Positions 8,980 through 33,092 of a stretch of DNA of 50,491 nucleotides are shown here, piece after piece. The DNA is from Aureispira sp. (lineage in GTDB: Bacteria > Bacteroidota > Bacteroidia > Chitinophagales > Saprospiraceae). The translations under genes and the position numbers were made by a program. How positions within the stretch are numbered: position 1 is the first letter of the stretch; the number at the start of each line of letters is the position of its first letter. The DNA is taken from contig JAAEPD010000577.1 in NCBI GenBank assembly GCA_024222455.1, positions 1 through 50,491 of the forward strand, written 5' to 3'. The notes beneath the pieces were generated by a model. The model did no database searches. It saw nothing but the letters and a program-made list of their open reading frames with translations, and was not told the origin of the DNA.

Positions 8980-10602
8980 ATGAAGTTCGGAAAAAAAGCA
9001 AAACGGAGGTTACTCATTACATTAGTAATATTAGTGCCATTAACTACATTTTTACTATGGCCATTGGGTGACCCTAAATATGATATTGTATATGACGAAG
9101 ACAAGGTTAAGTATCGTCAAGATTATTTAGCAGAAAAAGTATCAATTCCTGATTCTGTAGAACGCCCCAATATCATTGTAATTTTAGCAGATGATTTGAG
9201 CAAAATGGATGTTTCGCTCTATGGGGGCAAGCATGTGAAAACTAAACACATGGATGCCATAGGGCAGAATGGAGTAACTTTTCAGGAGGCTTATATTACA
9301 TCACCAGTTTGTGCCCCCTCTAGAGCTGGAATGCTGACAGGACGTTATCAGCAGCGTTTTGGATTTGAGATCAACACACACGAACGTTATCCTAAAAACA
9401 GACTAGAATACTATGTTTATAAATGGTTTATAGCCAAAGGAGATTGGAAGGTGGCCGAAATAGCAGTACCTACTTTTGATGCTATGCACAAACAAGGTTT
9501 GCCTCCTACAGAGATATTGCTCCCAGAAGTACTTAGAAAACATGGTTATGCCACAGCTATGATTGGCAAGTGGCATTTGGGGTATAGCGATATGGCTTTG
9601 CCTTTGAGTAGGGGCTTTGATTTTCATTATGGCTTCTATCAAGCCTTTAGTTTGTATGGTTTGGAGGATGATCCTAATATTGTTAATCAAAAGTTGACCG
9701 ATTTTTCAGATTCTTATATCTGGGGAAAGGCACGTACAGGTAATTGTGCTATTCGTAGAAATACAGATGTAATAGAAGAAAAGGGCTACTTAACTACCCG
9801 TATAGCTGAAGAGTCTATGCAATGGATGGAAGAGCATAAGGATGAGCCTTTCTTTATGTATGTTCCATTTTCTGCTCCACATACCCCTTTTCAGGCAACT
9901 AAGGAGTATTATGATATGTATAAGGATGTAAAAGACCCTAAAAAGCGGATTTATTATGCTATGATTCATGCGCTAGATGATGCTGTGGGAATGATAATGA
10001 ACAAGCTCAAGGAGTTAGAACTAGAGGAGAATACTATTGTCTTCTTTTTGAGTGATAATGGTGGTGCTACTTATACCTTAGCGGCAGATAACTCACCACT
10101 AAAAGGTGGTAAAATGAGCAACTTTGAAGGTGGTATTAATGTACCTTTTATGATACAATGGAAGGGCAAAATTCCAGCAGGTATGCAATACCAAGCACCT
10201 GTAAGTTCTCTCGATATTTTTGCAACTTCTGTGGCTTTAGGGCAGTGCAATAATTCAGATCATAAGTTAGATGGTGTAAATATTCTACCTTATTTATTAG
10301 ACTCTACCTACCAAAATAAACAGCCTCATGAGATGCTTTATTGGCGTGCAGCCAACCACAAAGCTATCCGAAAGGGGAGTTGGAAAATGATTAAGGACAC
10401 TAAGTCCAATCAAACCGTATTATACAATGTTCAGAAAGACAAATACGAAAAAAATGATGTCTTGGCAGAAGAACCTGAGGTGCTCAAAGCTTTAGAAACA
10501 AATTTAGAGCAATGGGAGTCTCAAATGATAGATTCTAAGTGGCCTAAAGTAATGGATATGGAGATTAGAGATGGTGAAATGGTTTATTACTTCCCTTTGT
10601 AG
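8980..10602 (+). CDS. Sulfatase, cysteine type, membrane-anchored or secreted
   Basis: 540 residues of the alkaline-phosphatase/arylsulfatase superfamily, which hydrolyses sulfate esters. Residues 1-30 are a basic stretch plus hydrophobic segment (KKAKRRLLITLVILVPLTTF) that acts as signal anchor or signal peptide. The fold begins at NIIVILADDLS, whose Asp pair binds calcium. The signature CAPSR has Cys111, the residue converted to formylglycine. GKWHLG (about 197) and SDNGG (about 359) supply further active-site residues. There is no T9SS tail, unlike the second sulfatase at 26705. Maturation needs an FGE; the only one seen is at 28490, 18 kb away. Sulfated marine polysaccharides are plausible substrates, but this cannot be read from the sequence. 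Confidence 0.9.
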   Translation: MKFGKKAKRRLLITLVILVPLTTFLLWPLGDPKYDIVYDEDKVKYRQDYLAEKVSIPDSVERPNIIVILADDLSKMDVSLYGGKHVKTKHMDAIGQNGVTFQEAYITSPVCAPSRAGMLTGRYQQRFGFEINTHERYPKNRLEYYVYKWFIAKGDWKVAEIAVPTFDAMHKQGLPPTEILLPEVLRKHGYATAMIGKWHLGYSDMALPLSRGFDFHYGFYQAFSLYGLEDDPNIVNQKLTDFSDSYIWGKARTGNCAIRRNTDVIEEKGYLTTRIAEESMQWMEEHKDEPFFMYVPFSAPHTPFQATKEYYDMYKDVKDPKKRIYYAMIHALDDAVGMIMNKLKELELEENTIVFFLSDNGGATYTLAADNSPLKGGKMSNFEGGINVPFMIQWKGKIPAGMQYQAPVSSLDIFATSVALGQCNNSDHKLDGVNILPYLLDSTYQNKQPHEMLYWRAANHKAIRKGSWKMIKDTKSNQTVLYNVQKDKYEKNDVLAEEPEVLKALETNLEQWESQMIDSKWPKVMDMEIRDGEMVYYFPL

Positions 10603-24692: not shown

Positions 24693-24762
24693 AGATGCTT
24701 GGTAGTTAGGTTTTTGGGGGTTGTTTGTTCTGAGTGAAATTAAATGTAACCTGTTTTTTTTG

Positions 24763-24818
24763 TTTGATAAGACCCTTGTCTATCGCTTAAATTTGTATTC
24801 ATACAAACACAAATTTAA
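24763..24818 (+). promoter_or_regulatory. Promoter with overlapping inverted repeat, serine-hydrolase gene
   Basis: TTTG (24763-24766) and TAAATTTG (24788-24795) are separated by 21 bp. The -7 box lies inside a perfect 9-bp inverted repeat, TTAAATTTG (24787-24795) and CAAATTTAA (24810-24818). An inner repeat, TTTGTA/TACAAA, is nested within it. The layout suits a repressor operator. It also supports the start at 24859 over the upstream in-frame ATG. Confidence 0.5.
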
Positions 24819-24858
24819 CTACAAGCTGTATATCCTACAGTATTTAAAAGACTTTATC

Positions 24859-26007
24859 ATGAAAAAAATAACATTTCAGTTACTTGCAGTTCTTATCTTT
24901 TTAAGCTTTGAATCTTGCAAAAAGGATGATTTACCTATAAAAACCAATTCCAAATCTTTTGATATAGAGTTGTTTGAGGCTAATATTGTTAGTGCCATGA
25001 AAGATAATGTAGTGGGGTATCAATATGCAATTAACCTTAATGGACAGTTACATGCAGAAGGTGCTGATGGCTGGGCACTAAAAGCTGAGGATGCCAATCC
25101 AACTACTGGCGGAGGAACAGGAGTGGAGCAAGATTCTAGAAAAAAAATGCATATAGCTAGTGTTAGTAAGATGATCACAGCAATAGCTGCAATACGATGT
25201 TTGAGTGAAAATAATTTAACTTTAGATGACTTTGTCTATCAATCTTTGCCAAGCAGTTGGTCTCAAGGAGATTGTGTCGGGAATATAACTTTTCGTGATC
25301 TTTTAGATCATAAAAGTGGAATCAAAGATGATGCTTCTTCAAATTATTCAGAATTAAAGAAACTTTTTGCTTCTGGCGTAGAATGTAGTGATATTGGAGT
25401 GAAAAATGACTATGAAAATGCCAATTTTGGATTGTTTAGAGTGCTTATTCCTTGGATAACAAAAGGTGCAGACTTGGAAGCTATCAAGACGGATGATGCA
25501 GAGATGGAAAAACAAACTCGCCAAATTTTTGCAGATTATATTAAGGACAAAATTTTTGTACCAGCAGGTATTACTACAGGTGGTCATGATAAACCAGAAG
25601 CGGATAAGGCAACCTTATACTATGATTTTGATAACGCAGCAGCAGGTGCTTGGAGCTTGAGTGAATATGAGGGGATTGGAGGATATGGATTTTTTATATC
25701 TACCTATGAAGTGAATGCAGTACTCGCTTACCTAATGCATTCTGAAACATACTTTAGTAAAGAACTTAGAACAACAATGCTTGAAGAAACACTAGGGTTT
25801 GAAAATGTCAAGAATGGAGAAAATGGAGTCTACTATAACAAAGGAGGAGATTGGTATACAGGAGGTAGTGAGGGAAGAGGTTCAAGAACAGGTATAGTTA
25901 TATTTCCTAATGGGGTAGAAGCCTCTTTATTCATAAACTGTAGAAGTGGAGATCATAGTTACCAAACAGATGTTTTAGTAGAAGCCTTTGATGCTGCTTG
26001 GAAATAA
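24859..26007 (+). CDS. Serine hydrolase lipoprotein (beta-lactamase/PBP fold)
   Basis: 382 residues from ATG 24859. The longer frame from 24721 would begin before the promoter, and its first 46 residues are not signal-like. The signal peptide runs to Cys20 (FLSFESC), followed by KKDD, as in an exported lipoprotein. The fold is the class C beta-lactamase/DD-peptidase/esterase type: SVSK (Ser101, Lys104) is the SxxK nucleophile motif and YEN (Tyr185, Asn187) the YxN motif. The third motif is probably in the Gly-rich GGSEGRGSRTG near the C-terminus. Relatives include DD-peptidases, esterases and D-aminopeptidases; a true beta-lactamase role is unsupported. A terminator follows the gene. Confidence 0.85.
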   Translation: MKKITFQLLAVLIFLSFESCKKDDLPIKTNSKSFDIELFEANIVSAMKDNVVGYQYAINLNGQLHAEGADGWALKAEDANPTTGGGTGVEQDSRKKMHIASVSKMITAIAAIRCLSENNLTLDDFVYQSLPSSWSQGDCVGNITFRDLLDHKSGIKDDASSNYSELKKLFASGVECSDIGVKNDYENANFGLFRVLIPWITKGADLEAIKTDDAEMEKQTRQIFADYIKDKIFVPAGITTGGHDKPEADKATLYYDFDNAAAGAWSLSEYEGIGGYGFFISTYEVNAVLAYLMHSETYFSKELRTTMLEETLGFENVKNGENGVYYNKGGDWYTGGSEGRGSRTGIVIFPNGVEASLFINCRSGDHSYQTDVLVEAFDAAWK

Positions 26008-26704: not shown

Positions 26705-28486
26705 ATGAAACTAATATCTCGACTTAGTTTAACCCTAGTGTTATTTTTAATTTTGAACGACTTAGTTTATGGGCAATCTCCAAATGTAGTATTTATTCTA
26801 ATTGATGATCAAGGTTGGAATGGCACTTCTGCCCAAATGGATAGTGCTCGAACAGACTCTAAAAGTGATTATTATCAAACACCACGTTTAGCTCAGCTTG
26901 CCCAAACAGGAATGACTTTTTCCCAAGCTTATGCACCTGGCCCTAAATGTTCTCCATCTAGGAATAGTATTCAAACAGGTCTGACAACAGCCAATAGTAA
27001 GTTTACGAGTACCTCAAGTATTGTAGATTCTACCAAGATATTATTAGAACCTTCTTCTAATATTCATATTGATAATAATAATCTGACTTTTCCAGAACTA
27101 GTTAAACAATCTAATCCTAACTATTATACAGCACATTATGGCAAGTGGCATTTAGGTAGCCAAGGGCCTGCTGCACATGGTTTTGATCGTGGAGATGGAA
27201 ATACTAGCAATAATACTGGTACGCAAGGAGAAGGAGTGCAAGTTGATCCTAAATTGATGTATGCAATTACAGATTCAGCCTTAGCTTTTATCCAAGATGC
27301 TAAAACAGCTAATCGACCATTTTTTGTACAATTATCGCATTATGCCGTGCACAGTCCTAGCGAATTGCAACAAGCTACTTACAATACTATAGCAACTCGC
27401 CCTATTGGAGCTGTTCATAATGACACCTTGTTTGGTGGAATGACAGAGGATGTTGATCATGTGGTAGGCAATTTTTTGGATAGCTTGACTGCTTGGGGCT
27501 TAGATACCAATACTTATGTGGTGTATATGTCTGATAATGGTGCTAGTGCTGGAATTAGTAAAAACACACCATTAAGTAGAGGTAAACTCTTTTTAGATGA
27601 GGGAGGAATACGAGTTCCTTTAATATTTAGAGGGCCAAATATCCCTGTCAATAGTTATAGTGATGTGCCTGTAGTGGGTTATGATTTGTATCCAACTTTT
27701 GTAGAGTTGATGTTAGGAAATACCAGTGCTGTGCCTAGTACAGTGGAAGGTGTGAGTTTGAAAAATGTAGCTCTAGGCACTTCTACTGCTGTAAGTAGAA
27801 ATACTTCTTTAATTTTCCATTCGCCACATTATGACCTTAATTCGAACAAACGACCAGAATCTGCTATACGAAAAGGAGATTACAAATTTATGGTAGACTA
27901 TGAATTGGGAGAGTTTTATTTGTTTAATTTAAAAACAGATTTGGAAGAAAGTAATGATCTAAAGGGCAGTTTGCCACAACTGACAGACTCACTTTGCCTA
28001 GAATTGCGAGATTATTTAAAAATCAGTTCTGCTCAGATGCCTACGCTTAATCCTGCTCATCTCAATAACCCTGGAACTGCTCCAGATGCAGATAATGATG
28101 GCTTGAATGATGAATGGGAGTTTAGAGAATTATTGACGGCTAAGTATAATGGCACAGATGATCCTGATGGGGATGGTTTGGATAATGAGAATGAAGAAAC
28201 CAATGGTACCGATCCTTATGTATTCAATACAAATACCAATCTTAACAAGATAGAGAAAGAAGCTCAGTTTAAGGTTTATCCTAATCCTAGTTCATCTATA
28301 TTGAATATAGAAGGGGAGACTGACTTTGATAAGGTTTTGTTGTATGATTATACTGGACAGGTTTTGATAAAGAAGACTAGAAAATCTAGTTTGAATGTGA
28401 GTCGATTGCCATCAGGTTTATACTTCTTAGTGTTGACTAAAAATGGGCAAGCTATATTTTCAGAAGAGGTTCGTATAAATCCTTAA
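26705..28486 (+). CDS. T9SS-exported sulfatase, cysteine type
   Basis: 593 residues. The signal peptide (1-23) ends VYGQ. The catalytic domain has NVVFILIDDQGW (metal-binding Asp pair), CSPSR with Cys82 as the formylglycine precursor, GKWHLG (about 146) and SDNGA (about 276). A short acidic Asp-rich calcium-binding segment with thrombospondin-3-like repeats (DADNDGLNDEW, DPDGDGLDNE; about 460-505) leads to the T9SS sorting domain (VYPNPSSSILNIEGE to the end). The enzyme therefore passes the inner membrane by Sec and the outer membrane by T9SS. The next gene, 3 bp away, is its likely activating enzyme. Substrate specificity cannot be read from the sequence. Confidence 0.9.
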   Translation: MKLISRLSLTLVLFLILNDLVYGQSPNVVFILIDDQGWNGTSAQMDSARTDSKSDYYQTPRLAQLAQTGMTFSQAYAPGPKCSPSRNSIQTGLTTANSKFTSTSSIVDSTKILLEPSSNIHIDNNNLTFPELVKQSNPNYYTAHYGKWHLGSQGPAAHGFDRGDGNTSNNTGTQGEGVQVDPKLMYAITDSALAFIQDAKTANRPFFVQLSHYAVHSPSELQQATYNTIATRPIGAVHNDTLFGGMTEDVDHVVGNFLDSLTAWGLDTNTYVVYMSDNGASAGISKNTPLSRGKLFLDEGGIRVPLIFRGPNIPVNSYSDVPVVGYDLYPTFVELMLGNTSAVPSTVEGVSLKNVALGTSTAVSRNTSLIFHSPHYDLNSNKRPESAIRKGDYKFMVDYELGEFYLFNLKTDLEESNDLKGSLPQLTDSLCLELRDYLKISSAQMPTLNPAHLNNPGTAPDADNDGLNDEWEFRELLTAKYNGTDDPDGDGLDNENEETNGTDPYVFNTNTNLNKIEKEAQFKVYPNPSSSILNIEGETDFDKVLLYDYTGQVLIKKTRKSSLNVSRLPSGLYFLVLTKNGQAIFSEEVRINP

Positions 28487-28489
28487 TAA

Positions 28490-29263
28490 TTGGAGTTTAG
28501 AGTATATATTATAATAATCATTTGGAGTTTTAGCCTTACTAATCTGGTTGCTCAAAAAGTGCCTAAAGGAATGGTTTTAGTGCCCAAGGGAGCTATACCT
28601 GCTTTCTATATGGATGAGACACCTGTTACGGTCAAGCAGTTTAGGGAATTTGTAAAAGCAACAGCTTACCAAACAGAAGCAGAGCAGTTGGGAGATGGCT
28701 CTGTTTATAATTTTAGACAAAAGGAGTGGGAGCTTAAAAAAGGTGCTTATTGGGAATATCCCTTTGGGACTGACCAAGCAAAAGCTAATGCCAAACATCC
28801 TGTCACACAAATATCTTGGAATGATGCTCAAGCTTACTGCAAATGGGCTAAAAAACGCTTGCCTTCTGCCAAAGAATGGGAATATGCTGCTCGAAATGCT
28901 CAAAATAACCAGTTTTTGTACCCTTGGGGGAATGAGTTGATAGTGGAGGGTAAATATAAGGCTAACTGTTGGCAAGGGAGTTTTCCTGATATGAACTTAA
29001 TGAAGGATGGTTTCCGGTTTACCTCGCCAGTGGGCCACTATGGAAAATCTTCATTGGGTTTAGCTGACTTGTCTGGCAATGTTTGGGAGTGGCTTAATGA
29101 TGAAGTTATGAAAGATGGGCAAATAGAAAAAGTACAAAAGGGTGGTTCTTTTATGTGCGAAAAAACAGTTTGTCATGGTTACCAAATTTCTGCACAAACA
29201 AGTGCTTCTGCAAATTCCGCTTTATTTCATGTAGGGTTTAGATGTGTGAAGGATCTAGAATAG
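28490..29263 (+). CDS. Formylglycine-generating enzyme (SUMF1 family) with signal peptide
   Basis: 257 residues. The family oxidises the Cys of CxPxR in sulfatases to formylglycine. The fold is visible from MVLVPKGAIPAFYMDETPVT through WNDAQAYCKWAKKRLPSAKEWEYAARN and LGLADLSGNVWEW to GFRC. The copper-binding, redox-active Cys pair is present: GGSFMCEKTVC has Cys223 and Cys228, matching Cys336 and Cys341 of human FGE. Many SUMF1-domain proteins (such as GldJ and GldK) lack this pair, so this looks like a true FGE. The start is TTG at 28490: two in-frame stops lie just upstream, and the next start would lose the signal sequence (VYIIIIIWSFSLTNLVAQ). It lies 3 bp after the sulfatase, so the two form an operon. 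Confidence 0.88.
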   Translation: MEFRVYIIIIIWSFSLTNLVAQKVPKGMVLVPKGAIPAFYMDETPVTVKQFREFVKATAYQTEAEQLGDGSVYNFRQKEWELKKGAYWEYPFGTDQAKANAKHPVTQISWNDAQAYCKWAKKRLPSAKEWEYAARNAQNNQFLYPWGNELIVEGKYKANCWQGSFPDMNLMKDGFRFTSPVGHYGKSSLGLADLSGNVWEWLNDEVMKDGQIEKVQKGGSFMCEKTVCHGYQISAQTSASANSALFHVGFRCVKDLE

Positions 29264-29264
29264 T

Positions 29265-29981
29265 TTATTTAAACAGCTTATCAACTACCTCCTTTTTGTA
29301 AGTTTTGCCCACAGGTAACTCTAAAGGTTCTTGCAAGACTAATTTACCACTTTGATAACCCTTTACTTGGTTAAGCGCAACAATATAAGAGCGATGAATA
29401 CGCATAAAATGTTCTTTAGGAAGTTGGTCGGCTACTTTTTTTAGGGCATTAAGTTCCATTATTTTTCCTTGAGTGGTATGGTAGCGGACATATTCCTTTA
29501 GAGATTCTATATAGATAATATCCTTTAGTAGGATTTTAATGTGTTTATGCTCTGAATGGATCATCAAAAAATCTTCTTCAAAATGATCTTGTTGGTCAAA
29601 TGCATTAGCCTTGCTTTGGATAGCTAGTTGTCCTATGGCTTTACTTACAGCTTTTTCAAAACGTTCAAAGCTTATTGGTTTTAGCAAGTAATCAATTACA
29701 TCTAACTCATAACTTTCTAGAGCATAATTAGCATAAGCTGTAGTGAAAATAACAGTAGGTGGATTTTCCAATTGCTTCAAAAAATCGATTCCTGACAATC
29801 TAGGCATTTGAATATCTAAGAAGATAAGATGAATGTCTGTTTTGTTTAGCCATTCTTGAGCTTCCTTTGCCGATTTGCACTTATGCACCAATTCTAATGC
29901 TTCTATGCGCTTAGTATAGCTTTCTAGCATATCTCGACCCAATTGCTCATCATCTACTATTAAACACTTTATTTTAGGCAT
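29265..29981 (-). CDS. LytTR-type response regulator
   Basis: 238 residues. The receiver domain (1-120) has the acidic pocket Asp10-Asp11, the phospho-acceptor Asp56 in LIFLDIQMP, and Lys in LLKPIS (about 101). The C-terminal LytTR DNA-binding domain (about 140-236) contains IIYIESLKEYVRYHT and MRIHRSYIVALNQV. It overlaps the kinase gene by 8 bp, which means translational coupling and a cognate pair. LytTR regulators bind paired direct repeats upstream of their targets; I could not identify such sites here. The stop lies one base from the convergent FGE gene, so transcripts from the two operons must meet. Confidence 0.93.
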   Translation of the reverse strand: MPKIKCLIVDDEQLGRDMLESYTKRIEALELVHKCKSAKEAQEWLNKTDIHLIFLDIQMPRLSGIDFLKQLENPPTVIFTTAYANYALESYELDVIDYLLKPISFERFEKAVSKAIGQLAIQSKANAFDQQDHFEEDFLMIHSEHKHIKILLKDIIYIESLKEYVRYHTTQGKIMELNALKKVADQLPKEHFMRIHRSYIVALNQVKGYQSGKLVLQEPLELPVGKTYKKEVVDKLFK

Positions 29982-31074
29982 AGTGGAAGTTGATTTGGAG
30001 TTCTACAGAATAAGTATTGTTGTTGGTTTGTATATTTAGGTGGTATTGATCTGGGTAGAGGAGTTCTAAGCGCCTTTGTATGTTGGCCGCACCAATCCCC
30101 ATATATTGATCTTGTGCATCTACGGTATCACCTCCTTCTGGAGGGATGTTATTTTGGGTTTGGAATAAGAGTTTTTCAGCTGTAGCTTCTAATTTAATGT
30201 TAATCCATCTGTTTTCTACATCTTCTGTATAACTGTGCTTAAAACAGTTTTCTATAAAAGGGATTAAGAGCATTGGGCCTATTTCTAAATTTCTAGCATT
30301 ATCTACATCTATTTCAAGTGTTATATTCTTAAAATCCAAGTCTCGTTGTTGTTGAAAGAATACATAGTTTTGGAGATATTCTATTTCTTTCGATAAAGAG
30401 ACCTTTTCTTCCTTACACTCATAAGTAACGTAGCGCAACATATCAGATAACTTTAGTACAAAATCACCAGCTTCTTGTGGGCGAAGTTGCACAATAGCGT
30501 ATAGATTATTCATGGCATTAAAAAGGAAATGAGGGTTGATTTGAGCTCTTAGGAACTTGAGCTCATTTTGGAGGCTTTCCTTCTGTAAGGCAGCTTCTTT
30601 TCGTTCTCTATACAAAAACTCGAAAGCTAAAGCATATAAAGAGCTTGCAAATAGCATCAAAGTGACTACTGAGGCTGTAAAGAGAATAGGTAAGTGTTTA
30701 AAATTAGTACTTTCTGCTAGTACTGTCCCATCTGTTTTATAAAAACCAAAATTTAAAATAATTTGTGTTTCAGACCAATGATTTATGTAGAATAAAAAGC
30801 CATATACAATAGTTCCTGCCAATACAATGATAGGAAAATAGATTAATAAAGGGGAAAGGGATAGTTTTTTAGCTCTATTGAATCGAAAAAGCTTAGGAAC
30901 AATTACGAATATATTTAAATAAGCGAGTCCCATGACAAACAAAAAAGGAGGTAATGTGCGTATGAGCCCCATAGCCCATCCAAATACACTGGCATTGGCA
31001 TAAAACGGGATGCTAGCAAATACTAGCCAAAAAATAAGGTGACCTAAAATAGAGTATTTAGCCTTTGATTTCAC
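29974..31074 (-). CDS. LytS-type sensor histidine kinase
   Basis: 366 residues. Four N-terminal membrane segments (about 10-30, 38-60, 76-98 and 128-152) are followed by a short coiled coil and the His_kinase family domain (pfam06580 type): LRAQINPHFLFNAMNN with His182 as the phospho-acceptor. An HATPase_c domain has IPFIENCFKH as N-box and GIGAANIQRRLELLYP as G-box region. No separate periplasmic sensor domain is seen, so sensing is probably within the membrane. The start is GTG (31072-31074). It is coupled to the LytTR regulator. Confidence 0.92.
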   Translation of the reverse strand: MKSKAKYSILGHLIFWLVFASIPFYANASVFGWAMGLIRTLPPFLFVMGLAYLNIFVIVPKLFRFNRAKKLSLSPLLIYFPIIVLAGTIVYGFLFYINHWSETQIILNFGFYKTDGTVLAESTNFKHLPILFTASVVTLMLFASSLYALAFEFLYRERKEAALQKESLQNELKFLRAQINPHFLFNAMNNLYAIVQLRPQEAGDFVLKLSDMLRYVTYECKEEKVSLSKEIEYLQNYVFFQQQRDLDFKNITLEIDVDNARNLEIGPMLLIPFIENCFKHSYTEDVENRWINIKLEATAEKLLFQTQNNIPPEGGDTVDAQDQYMGIGAANIQRRLELLYPDQYHLNIQTNNNTYSVELQINFHYA

Positions 31075-31181
31075 TATAGTTCGTTAAATTTTCGAAAGCG
31101 ATTGATAATTAACTCTGATCTTTAATCTTTAAAATTGAGAGCGTTAATATTTTTTGATTATCAGTAGCTAAGAAGTAATGC

Positions 31182-31211
31182 TTTTTAAAATTTTAGCTAA
31201 AATTTTAAAAA
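31182..31211. repeat. Perfect 30-bp AT-rich palindrome
   Basis: TTTTTAAAATTTTAG is followed immediately by its own complement, centred on AGCT. It lies between the tRNA terminator and the LytS-type kinase gene, about 110 bp upstream of that gene. It could be a protein-binding site or a fold-back structure. It has no GC-rich stem and so is not a standard terminator. Confidence 0.6.
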
Positions 31212-31254
31212 TAGCGGACTATTAATTTCATAGAGAGTAAATTAATCAAACTTA

Positions 31255-31297
31255 TATAAAAAACAAAAAGGCTAGATCATTATATGATCTAGCCTTT
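31255..31297 (-). terminator. Intrinsic terminator of the tRNA-Glu operon
   Basis: A perfect 14-bp stem, AAAGGCTAGATCAT (31267-31280) with ATGATCTAGCCTTT (31284-31297), and a 3-nt loop TAT. Read on the minus strand it is followed by a T-rich tract (TTGTTTTTTTATATAAG). It lies 9 bp beyond the last tRNA. Confidence 0.9.
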
Positions 31298-31305
31298 GAT
31301 ACTAG

Positions 31306-31377
31306 TAGCCCGTAGGGGAATCGAACCCCTCTTACCAGGATGAAAACCTGGCGTCCTAGCCGATAGACGAACGGGCC
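31306..31377 (-). tRNA. tRNA-Glu (anticodon TTC), copy 3 of the transcript
   Basis: A 72-nt cloverleaf on the minus strand. The 5' acceptor strand GGCCCGT pairs with ACGGGCT (G-U at the first pair) and the discriminator base is A. The anticodon arm is CCAGG-TTTTCAT-CCTGG with anticodon TTC. The T arm is AGGGG-TTCGATT-CCCCT. No CCA is encoded. It is identical to the other two copies and is the last one before the terminator. Confidence 0.96.
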
Positions 31378-31418
31378 ATAACAGTTATTGAAAAAGAGCA
31401 TGTCAAATCTTTTTTTGG

Positions 31419-31490
31419 TAGCCCGTAGGGGAATCGAACCCCTCTTACCAGGATGAAAACCTGGCGTCCTAGCCGATAGACGAACGGGCC
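31419..31490 (-). tRNA. tRNA-Glu (anticodon TTC), copy 2 of the transcript
   Basis: Identical over all 72 nt to the copies at 31306 and 31560. It is separated from the distal copy by 41 bp and from the proximal one by 69 bp. The bases just past its 3' end (on the plus strand ATGTCAAATC plus a T run and GG) are repeated at the same place beside the proximal copy, which points to tandem duplication. Confidence 0.96.
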
Positions 31491-31512
31491 TCAATAACTA
31501 TTACTGTAATTC

Positions 31513-31532
31513 ATGCGTTTCGCTCAACGCAT
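31513..31532. repeat. Small hairpin in the tRNA spacer
   Basis: ATGCGTT (31513-31519) pairs with AACGCAT (31526-31532) around loop TCGCTC, between the first and second transcribed tRNA-Glu. It may be a processing signal for the polycistronic tRNA precursor. There is no T tract, so it is not an obvious terminator. Confidence 0.45.
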
Positions 31533-31559
31533 AAGAGTAAGTATGTCAAATCTTTTTGG

Positions 31560-31631
31560 TAGCCCGTAGGGGAATCGAACCCCTCTTACCAGGATGAAAA
31601 CCTGGCGTCCTAGCCGATAGACGAACGGGCC
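31560..31631 (-). tRNA. tRNA-Glu (anticodon TTC), copy 1 of the transcript
   Basis: The promoter-proximal copy, same 72-nt sequence and structure as the other two. The predicted transcription start is about 25 nt upstream, giving a short 5' leader for RNase P to remove. Confidence 0.96.
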
Positions 31632-31662
31632 AAAGTGCATTACCTTTTGTAATGAAGCGGTG

Positions 31663-31693
31663 CAAATATAGAACACTTTTTATTTTTTTCCAA
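31663..31693 (-). promoter_or_regulatory. Bacteroidota-type promoter of the tRNA-Glu operon
   Basis: On the minus strand TTGG (31690-31693) and TATATTTG (31663-31670) are spaced by 19 bp and match the TTTG/TAnnTTTG consensus exactly in the -7 box. The first tRNA begins 32 nt after the -7 box. The spacer is A-rich. Confidence 0.8.
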
Positions 31694-31947
31694 GCCTCTC
31701 GAAAAAAAAATGCGTTTTTATTTGAAAGGAACAATTGCCAAACACAATCGTACAGAGCTAAGTTCCTTAAAAAGGAATCTTTTGAATTTTATGAAAGATT
31801 ATTTTTGATAGACTATACTACTATGATAGTCTTAGTTTTAACTAATTATTCTATGGTTGAAAAGGAGCTTTACTTGCATTAGGATAAAAAATATACTACT
31901 AAAAAGAGGCTATAAAGTTTTTAGAAAAAAAAGTAATAATTTTTTTT
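31694..31947. other. Intergenic region between tRNA promoter and orphan kinase
   Basis: About 250 bp of AT-rich DNA downstream of the orphan histidine kinase. I see no convincing gene, repeat or strong terminator. The short frames here have no coding signature. Confidence 0.5.
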
Positions 31948-32982
31948 CTAAAGCTCTATTGATAAAGAAACCTCAAAGGACTCTGGAAGGTTTTTGGTAT
32001 TTAACTCATATTTTTTGGGGCTACGGAGTTCTAAACGTTGCTTTATATTTTCAAGGCCAACACCCCCCATTTTATCTTTTTGTTGGTGTAGATCATTTTT
32101 AGAATTTAGTGTTTTGAACACCAATTTTTGATCTTTTACATGGATTGATATATGAGCAAAAGCCTTTTCGTTTAAATCAAAATCGCAATGTTTGAAGCAG
32201 TTTTCTACAATTGGGATCAGAATCATAGGCTCTATATAGCTGTTGGATATATCACCCGTGCTCTCCAATATTATGTTTAAAGGTGTTTCGCTACGCATTT
32301 GAAATAACTCTATGAACTTCTGAATATGTAGAATTTCTTGTTCTAAAATAACTTGTTTGGCTTGCCCTTCATAGATGACATAACGAAGTAATTCGGAGAG
32401 CTTCAATATCATTTCTGGTGCTACATCTGACTTCATTACAGCCAATGAGTAGATATTGTTGAGGGTGTTGAATAAGAAATGAGGGTTTATTTGTGCTTTC
32501 AGGAATTGTACTTGAGCCTCTTGGTAGCGATTTTGCAAAGCCATCTGATTTTGCATTTCTACAGCCCTGTTCTGCAATATTTGGTACAAGGTGCTAACTA
32601 CAATAACCCCAAAGGAAGAGGTATATGCAAAAATACGCAATCGAGTATTTTCGGGGAGTTTTAAATTATAAAAATCTCCAGGTACAATTAGATTAAAGGC
32701 AACTCTAAGTTCTGTTAGTGTGAGTATAGACAGGATAACAACTATAAAATAGAGTAGATAGTGTTGCTTGTTAAAAAGAAGTTTGACCAATAAAATATTA
32801 AGATAGAATAATGCGGAAAGTACAGCAACATTTACAGCACTTCTATACATAGCCCATTGCAAGCTGAGTATATTGTTGATGATAATAACAAAAATAAGCC
32901 AGGCTACCACCCAAAAAGATAGATGGAGACCTATAATCAACCATTTGTTTTCATCTAACTTGTTTTTAGTCATTAGATTCAT
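31948..32982 (-). CDS. LytS-type sensor histidine kinase, orphan
   Basis: 344 residues from the ATG at 32982; an in-frame ATG at 33039 would add 19 residues not typical of the family. Four membrane segments (about 15-38, 48-70, 76-97 and 116-136) are followed by a coiled coil and the kinase core: LKAQINPHFLFNTLNN with His168. The HATPase_c domain has IPIVENCFKH and GVGLENIKQRLELRSP. It is a paralogue of the kinase at 29974-31074, in the same orientation, but has no response regulator beside it. It may signal through the LytTR protein 2 kb away or through a partner elsewhere. Confidence 0.88.
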   Translation of the reverse strand: MNLMTKNKLDENKWLIIGLHLSFWVVAWLIFVIIINNILSLQWAMYRSAVNVAVLSALFYLNILLVKLLFNKQHYLLYFIVVILSILTLTELRVAFNLIVPGDFYNLKLPENTRLRIFAYTSSFGVIVVSTLYQILQNRAVEMQNQMALQNRYQEAQVQFLKAQINPHFLFNTLNNIYSLAVMKSDVAPEMILKLSELLRYVIYEGQAKQVILEQEILHIQKFIELFQMRSETPLNIILESTGDISNSYIEPMILIPIVENCFKHCDFDLNEKAFAHISIHVKDQKLVFKTLNSKNDLHQQKDKMGGVGLENIKQRLELRSPKKYELNTKNLPESFEVSLSIEL

Positions 32983-33092
32983 ACTACTTTGTTTTGAACT
33001 ATAATAGTAGGATTTTAGCGAAAAAACAAAAGAAATCAATCAATGGTCATCGTTATTCTATCAAAGGTAATTTGTGCTAAACAAAGTAGAGC

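Follow-up and report, generated by a model that had tools for sequence, protein, structure and literature searches.

A predicted exported formylglycine-generating enzyme beside a sulfatase in Aureispira sp., and the location of such enzymes across bacterial phyla

Contig JAAEPD010000577.1 of Aureispira sp. (assembly GCA_024222455.1), analyzed over positions 1 to 50,491, a stretch called the window here, encodes on its forward strand a Cys-type sulfatase followed by a formylglycine-generating enzyme (FGE). Both proteins carry predicted export signals, and we consider it probable, at roughly 0.62, that the FGE is exported and makes formylglycine in the periplasm on the adjacent sulfatase. Beyond this pair, comparison of FGE sequences suggests that most FGEs of Bacteroidota and of the sampled Planctomycetota are, as a rule, exported and that FGE location goes with the export route of the client; on these comparisons, periplasmic activation appears well supported.

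RESULTS

A sulfatase and an FGE with predicted export signals

An earlier note on this DNA had described a CSPSR sulfatase with signal peptide and type IX secretion system (T9SS) tail, followed 3 bp later by an FGE with both redox cysteines and its own signal sequence. The open reading frames (ORFs) and profile matches show this pair to be real (Table 1). The sulfatase, 593 residues long from an ATG start, has a signal-like N terminus and contains the DD, CxPxR, GKWHLG, AVHSP, SDNG, and RGK motifs, which together with the PF00884 match place it among the type I (Cys) sulfatases. Its sorting domain scored 44.8 bits against PF18962 (cut-off 27) and 39.8 bits against TIGR04183; with GldK encoded in the same genome (558 bits, cut-off 350), the protein has the features of a T9SS type A substrate, and judging from GldK the secretion system itself is likely present. 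A tandem TAA TAA ends the sulfatase gene, and the FGE gene opens 3 bp past the first stop, in the same frame and on the same strand. The ORFs, the motifs, and the Cys pair of this region (26705 to 29263) are not due to chance.

The FGE matched PF03781 with 187 bits, and its top relative in the PDB is human FGE (about 170 bits). Both redox cysteines were confirmed by alignment, C223 and C228 corresponding to C336 and C341 of the human enzyme; their columns are invariant in the FGE alignments A1 (the window FGE and 16 FGEs of the same family) and A2, and the GGSF, WQG-FP, and NVWEW motifs are retained. The predicted structure has a predicted local distance difference test (pLDDT) value of 84.9 and a predicted template modeling score (pTM) of 0.83. 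Its best PDB matches in Foldseek are FGEs, with human FGE at an E value of 2.7e-23, and the VIA structural comparison with FGEs gave Z scores of 25 to 26 and root mean square deviations of 2.5 to 3.0 over 217 to 223 residues (human FGE, Z 26). By domain, fold, and Cx4C pair, the protein is thus a member of the FGE/SUMF1 family; identity as GldK/GldJ or PvdO was rejected, the scores lying below the cut-offs (TIGR03525, 86.5 bits versus 350).

The first codon after the sulfatase stop is TTG (28490), and the first ATG, Met28, lies inside the FGE core; because no ATG precedes the core, the signal sequence depends on the TTG start. Leaders were called by a rule that looks for a hydrophobic run and for a lipobox or small residues. 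Such a call is passed by chance in 11 to 24% of cases (685 of 5,000 composition shuffles; among open starts, 160 of the window's 1,513 and 11 of the 46 located in inter-ORF gaps), which counts against export, and taken alone the leader would be weak evidence. Because of this high chance rate, the leader was compared with those of relatives. The FGE of family genome G022, the closest of them, aligned with the window FGE from residue 1 in BLAST, with 47% identity over the full length; it starts with ATG and has a lipoprotein leader with a lipobox. In the aligned leaders (MEFRVYIIIIIWSFSLTN for the window FGE and MKYYIVVAMIICLFSCTT for the G022 FGE), the lipobox Cys is replaced by Leu16, leaving the window FGE without a leader of the signal peptidase II type (SPII). 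Its leader is taken as a former lipoprotein leader that would now act as a signal peptidase I type (SPI) leader or as an anchor. Rule and relative agree in predicting an N-terminal Sec leader, and the alignment with an ATG-started leader makes this predicted signal sequence, already proposed in the earlier note, convincing. Start codons chosen by a rule that favors ATG were ATG in 131, TTG in 8, and GTG in 1 of 140 exported Bacteroidota FGEs.

The genome to which the window belongs (G000; 7.76 Mb in 683 contigs, 97.6% complete, 4.2% contaminated) yielded 13 PF03781 matches in 12 proteins, and the window FGE is the only one of the 12 with the Cx4C pair. Five PF00884 matches, four of them over the cut-off, include two with CxPxR; both of these sulfatases are encoded on the same contig, and each has an N-terminal hydrophobic segment and has kept the catalytic motifs. 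The radical SAM sulfatase maturase anSME, a cytoplasmic iron-sulfur enzyme that also makes formylglycine in sulfatases, was rejected as the maturase, with no match over the cut-off in this genome (TIGR03942 profile; best 30.5 bits versus 349); a search of 150 family genomes at E 1e-60 gave no match either. Given a single Cys-pair FGE and no anSME, the window FGE is, on these profile searches, the only evident maturase for both CxPxR sulfatases, and the second, anchored one is likely another client. As a separate observation, an 894-residue protein of this genome (L009/L010, contig C111) has two FGE-fold matches and lacks the Cx4C pair.

Table 1. Features of the sulfatase-FGE region and the second CxPxR sulfatase (window coordinates)
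Feature	Position	Strand	Basis
Cys-type (formylglycine) sulfatase, signal peptide and T9SS type A tail	26705..28486	+	ORF; PF00884 138 bits; PF18962 44.8 bits; catalytic motifs
Predicted Sec/SPI signal peptide of sulfatase, MKLISRLSLTLVLFLILNDLVYG	26705..26773	+	read from translation
CSPSR formylglycine motif, Cys82 to Arg86 of sulfatase	26948..26962	+	sequence motif
Por_Secre_tail (T9SS sorting domain), sulfatase residues 524-584	28274..28456	+	profile matches
FGE/SUMF1-domain protein, 257 aa, TTG start	28490..29263	+	profile and structure matches
N-terminal export leader of FGE, MEFRVYIIIIIWSFSLTNLVA, probably SPI-type	28490..28552	+	alignment with G022 FGE leader; rule-based prediction
Cx4C copper-type cysteine pair, Cys223 and Cys228 of FGE	29156..29173	+	aligned with human C336/C341
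Other CxPxR sulfatase (CAPSR), N-terminal hydrophobic anchor	8980..10602	+	profile matches; motifs

Export leaders across bacterial phyla

The A1 profile was searched against 395 Bacteroidota, 249 Pseudomonadota, 198 Actinomycetota, and 99 Planctomycetota genomes, the phylum names being inferred from named loci; genomes of named species were added via a degenerate-pattern scan (best 80 of 554), and of the 65 family matches for FGE the 30 best were read. With copies removed, 259 distinct FGEs scoring above 200 bits to A1 formed the survey set; FGEs below this score, many from the one-family scan and also L229, L232, L260, and L261, were dropped. The phylum scan scored five candidates per genome with a profile from one family, so that the count of leaderless FGEs may be too low for genomes that encode several FGEs. 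Calls of the leader rule were corrected by hand from the N termini for 11 proteins (exported, L052, L138, L142, L179, and L212; cut, L131 and L185; leaderless, L223, L249, L256, and L285).

A predicted export leader was present in 145 of 151 Bacteroidota FGEs (window FGE included; 2 leaderless, 4 cut), in 27 of 28 sampled Planctomycetota FGEs, and in 6 of 9 from Verrucomicrobiota (1 cut). The figure was 11 of 40 for Pseudomonadota (1 cut) and 0 of 26 for Actinomycetota; smaller sets comprised Acidobacteriota (1/2), Cyanobacteriota (1/1), Chloroflexota (0/1), and an unplaced FGE (1/1). Before correction the rule had flagged just 2 of the 26 Actinomycetota FGEs as exported, and false calls therefore cannot explain the contrast between phyla. 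Lipoprotein-like leaders were called in 95 of the 151 Bacteroidota FGEs, SPII being the commonest form there. The split extends to motifs: exported FGEs mostly have GGSFLC, leaderless ones mostly GGSHLCAPNYC or GGSYLCHxSYC, and the two leaderless Bacteroidota FGEs both belong to a different motif class from the exported ones. A predicted export leader is the rule among Bacteroidota FGEs above 200 bits and in the Planctomycetota sampled, and the window pair, which the earlier note had presented as a special case, is not one.

The survey also brought up variants of the motifs themselves. Cx4C went undetected in three of the 259 FGEs (L125, L130, and L301); in L125 and L130, exported Bacteroidota proteins, Cx2C replaces it (GGSFQCEEC and GGSFICNEC) and the copper loop is shortened. 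In the GGSYLCHxSYC bin, which also holds exported outsiders and with which human FGE groups, a CxPxR substrate-type motif, CC[TAG]PxR, precedes the FGE domain in 12 of 28 members and in none of the other leaderless (n = 41) or remaining (n = 190) FGEs. Leaderless FGEs of this class, for example L176, L267, L268, L274, L249, and L186, thus often bear their own substrate motif.

FGE location and the export route of the neighboring sulfatase

For 80 of the 259 FGEs, the sequence fetched around the gene, with flanks of 1.5 kb to about 8 kb per side, contained a CxPxR sulfatase; in 78 cases both N termini were readable, the window pair being excluded. Two clients were corrected by hand (the L116 sulfatase was set to Sec, and that of L175, which contains runs of N, to cut). 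Exported FGEs (n = 50) adjoined Sec-exported sulfatases in 46 cases, Tat-like ones in 4, and leaderless ones in none; for leaderless FGEs (n = 28) the counts were 3 Sec, 9 Tat, and 16 leaderless (Fisher P = 3.6e-13 for FGE location versus Sec export). The 46 pairs answer the earlier note's call for further sulfatase-FGE pairs in which both partners have signal peptides. On visual inspection, the leaders in L102, L110, and L183, three of the four exported/Tat pairs, resemble ordinary Sec leaders with two Arg residues, and L322, counted as leaderless, looks like Sec; the counts given here are nevertheless those of the rule. Within Pseudomonadota, exported FGEs had 5 Sec and 1 Tat neighbors, and leaderless FGEs had 3 Sec, 7 Tat, and 9 leaderless neighbors. 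One Bacteroidota genome, G269, contains both arrangements: at L058/L392 an SPII-type FGE adjoins a Sec sulfatase, and at L133 the FGE and the neighboring sulfatases all lack leaders. Because Tat carries folded proteins, clients of that route would suit an FGE in the cytoplasm, and Sec clients one in the periplasm.

Phylogeny tempers this association. A tree of 79 FGEs, the window FGE added, contains only two location changes, and the 2 independent contrasts (mean 1.6 in the expected direction, 0 opposite) are a number at which the sign test cannot reach 0.05; the association is strong as a count and close to two evolutionary events, with weak phylogenetic independence. As an observation apart, the leaderless FGE of L133 groups with proteobacterial and actinobacterial FGEs and is flanked by two leaderless CTAGR sulfatases; the locus looks like an acquired cytoplasmic cassette beside an exported system.

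Alternative readings of the window FGE

Best placed among the alternatives, though in our view unlikely, is a drifted exported FGE-fold protein that has kept the Cys pair while its peptide pocket decayed, and that is now a weak enzyme, an enzyme with another substrate, or a binding protein like PorK/GldK. Several features weigh in its favor and against formylglycine formation by the window FGE. The protein departs at 16 sites from columns conserved in 31 to 36 of 36 relatives. Among these sites, V227, Q232, and Q236 replace the equivalents of human Y340, R345, and R349 (numbers counted from C336 and C341), at which Y, R, and R are kept in 31, 33, and 35 of the 36 relatives, respectively. Variants of R349 in human FGE cause multiple sulfatase deficiency, a point for which the literature search found no paper. 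Moreover, loops of 19 and 10 residues of the G022 FGE are missing, and pLDDT falls below 50 in the model only at residues 224 to 230, a loop that lies between the cysteines and extends shortly beyond the second. Gln at the R349 equivalent recurs in L023, whose genome (G003) shows CxPxR in only 1 of three PF00884 loci read, and 11 of the 12 FGE-fold proteins of G000 lack the Cys pair. On the other side, G000 yielded no other Cys-pair FGE, and both of its CxPxR sulfatases have intact catalytic motifs; in the window FGE the Cys pair, WQG-FP, and NVWEW are retained, the best Foldseek matches are true FGEs, and the gene adjoins a sulfatase. Pocket substitution alone is no proof of activity loss, and intact clients without another maturase argue that the window FGE still works.

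A second alternative, which we rate as improbable, places the FGE in the cytoplasm, with Met28 (or GTG24) as the real start and Cys82 oxidized before or during Sec export. In line with this alternative, one article assigns the FGE of prokaryotes to the cytosol (PMC4505483). The TTG start has no evident ribosome site close by, AAGGA directly precedes Met28, no ATG occurs upstream of it, and the leader rule is passed by 11 to 24% of comparable stretches. However, AAGGA touches Met28 and is thus closer than the usual spacing of ribosome sites, the alignment with the ATG-started leader of a 47%-identical relative begins at residue 1, and leaders are found in 144 other Bacteroidota FGEs, only 2 being leaderless and both of a different motif class. 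A real start after the hydrophobic segment had been named in the earlier note as what would overturn its proposal; the alignment of leaders supports the TTG start.

The family genomes bear on a third alternative. Among the 150, 46 have matches to both the FGE (E 1e-25) and the window sulfatase (E 1e-20), 15 to the FGE only, 26 to the sulfatase only, and 63 to neither, a co-occurrence above expectation (Fisher P = 2.6e-8, not corrected for kinship). An unrecognized cytoplasmic maturase, a distant radical SAM or copper enzyme that modifies the sulfatases and leaves the FGE accessory, would suit the 26 of 72 sulfatase-positive genomes without an FGE match at these thresholds and the draft state of G000 (683 contigs), but is very improbable given this co-occurrence and the absence of anSME over the cut-off from G000 and all 150 family genomes. 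PF00884 was checked at 1e-15 in 10 of the 15 FGE-only genomes and in G022 and G024, with matches in 10 of the 12; the FGE-positive genomes G135 and G027 gave none, and in G022 contig C128 carries the FGE while the sequence most similar to the window sulfatase is on C368, both of which detract from an FGE-sulfatase partnership. Among 30 loci read from this check, CxPxR was found in 25, with Cys in all 25, and a leader was called in 20 of these.

Neither an orthologous operon nor shared synteny could be upheld: the sequences fetched from the closest relatives, G022, G003, and G024, showed no sulfatase next to the FGE, and the PF00144-like gene that the G022 FGE also follows (L081, 2248 to 3435) has only 23% identity over 235 columns to the gene preceding the sulfatase-FGE pair in the window. 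That gene (window 24721 to 26007) encodes a serine beta-lactamase-like lipoprotein (PF00144). Convergent to the FGE, window positions 29265 to 33039 on the minus strand encode, as judged by eye, a response regulator and two membrane proteins that resemble histidine kinases and have the PHFLFN motif, the end of the response regulator gene lying 1 bp from the FGE stop. A promoter scan of the locus was uninformative. Short (222 to 264 residues), divergent exported FGEs with the Cys pair were also seen (L033/L091 of G135, L035, L036, and L038); because G135 has such an FGE and PF00884 gave no match there at 1e-15, the FGEs of this branch may act on a different client.

DISCUSSION

With both partners predicted to be exported and neither another Cys-pair FGE nor anSME found in G000, periplasmic maturation is the simplest reading. 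The FGE would be translated from TTG 28490 with its export leader, cross the inner membrane by Sec, and work in the periplasm, oxidizing Cys82 to formylglycine in the neighboring sulfatase, with which it is probably co-transcribed. This step would fall after Sec has delivered the sulfatase unfolded and before its folding and outward passage through the T9SS; the FGE probably also serves the anchored sulfatase. What we infer here concerns co-transcription, the localization of the FGE, its loading with copper, its activity, and the sequence in which these events occur. The proposal of the earlier note that formylglycine is made in the periplasm is thus favored by the export signals, the genome content, and the survey association, and burdened by the lost pocket residues.

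The window FGE shares with aerobic FGEs (SUMF1; human, Streptomyces coelicolor, and Thermomonospora curvata) the fold, Cx4C, WQG-FP, NVWEW, and an adjoining CxPxR client; it differs in having an export leader in a bacterium, in lacking the R349, R345, and Y340 equivalents, and in the two loops gone relative to its closest relative. In a tree of 124 FGEs, human SUMF1 stands with 14 leaderless FGEs (SH-aLRT 99), apart from the exported groups, one of which, from Bacteroidota, includes the window FGE. The likeness to activation in the eukaryotic endoplasmic reticulum (ER), drawn in the earlier note, therefore holds as to an unfolded, translocated client that would be modified in an extracytoplasmic compartment, and is convergent: the human enzyme is not the closest kin of the window FGE, and periplasm and T9SS take the place of the ER.

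PvdO, like PorK/GldK/GldJ and OCTIN, has an FGE fold outside the cytoplasm. PorK (PMC12421860) and OCTIN (PMC5915273) are reported as exported FGE-fold proteins without the cysteines and were for this reason set aside as models; the window FGE has the pair and adjoins a sulfatase. The literature search, conducted mostly outside subscription journals, found no bacterial FGE described as both exported and catalytic, which is no proof of novelty. A Pedobacter sulfatase with a predicted Sec leader, made leaderless in Escherichia coli with a mycobacterial FGE, carried formylglycine (PMC8746622); two Pedobacter FGEs in our survey set, L160 and L207, have leaders.

The comparisons would be consistent with exported FGE lineages in Bacteroidota and Planctomycetota for Sec-exported sulfatases and with leaderless FGEs that serve leaderless or Tat-exported, prefolded ones. 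We lean slightly toward a general compartment rule, by which the aerobic maturase is placed where its client is unfolded: the FGEs of Bacteroidota (mostly lipoproteins), Planctomycetota, and Verrucomicrobiota would be periplasmic for Sec sulfatases, the leaderless FGEs of Actinomycetota and most Pseudomonadota would act on cytoplasmic or folded Tat-exported ones, and the extracytoplasmic FGE would have arisen independently of the ER enzyme. For Bacteroidota and Planctomycetota, the survey points opposite to the cytosolic placement of prokaryotic FGE (PMC4505483) and to the description, in a review, of Cys-type sulfatases as typically cytosolic and Ser-type as periplasmic (PMC3920027). Production of such sulfatases in E. 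coli often yields poorly modified protein (PMC8484680), and periplasmic maturation, if true, may help to explain this. It would also revise the site of maturation for many exported bacterial sulfatases and offer a clean test of maturase placement by the export route of the client.

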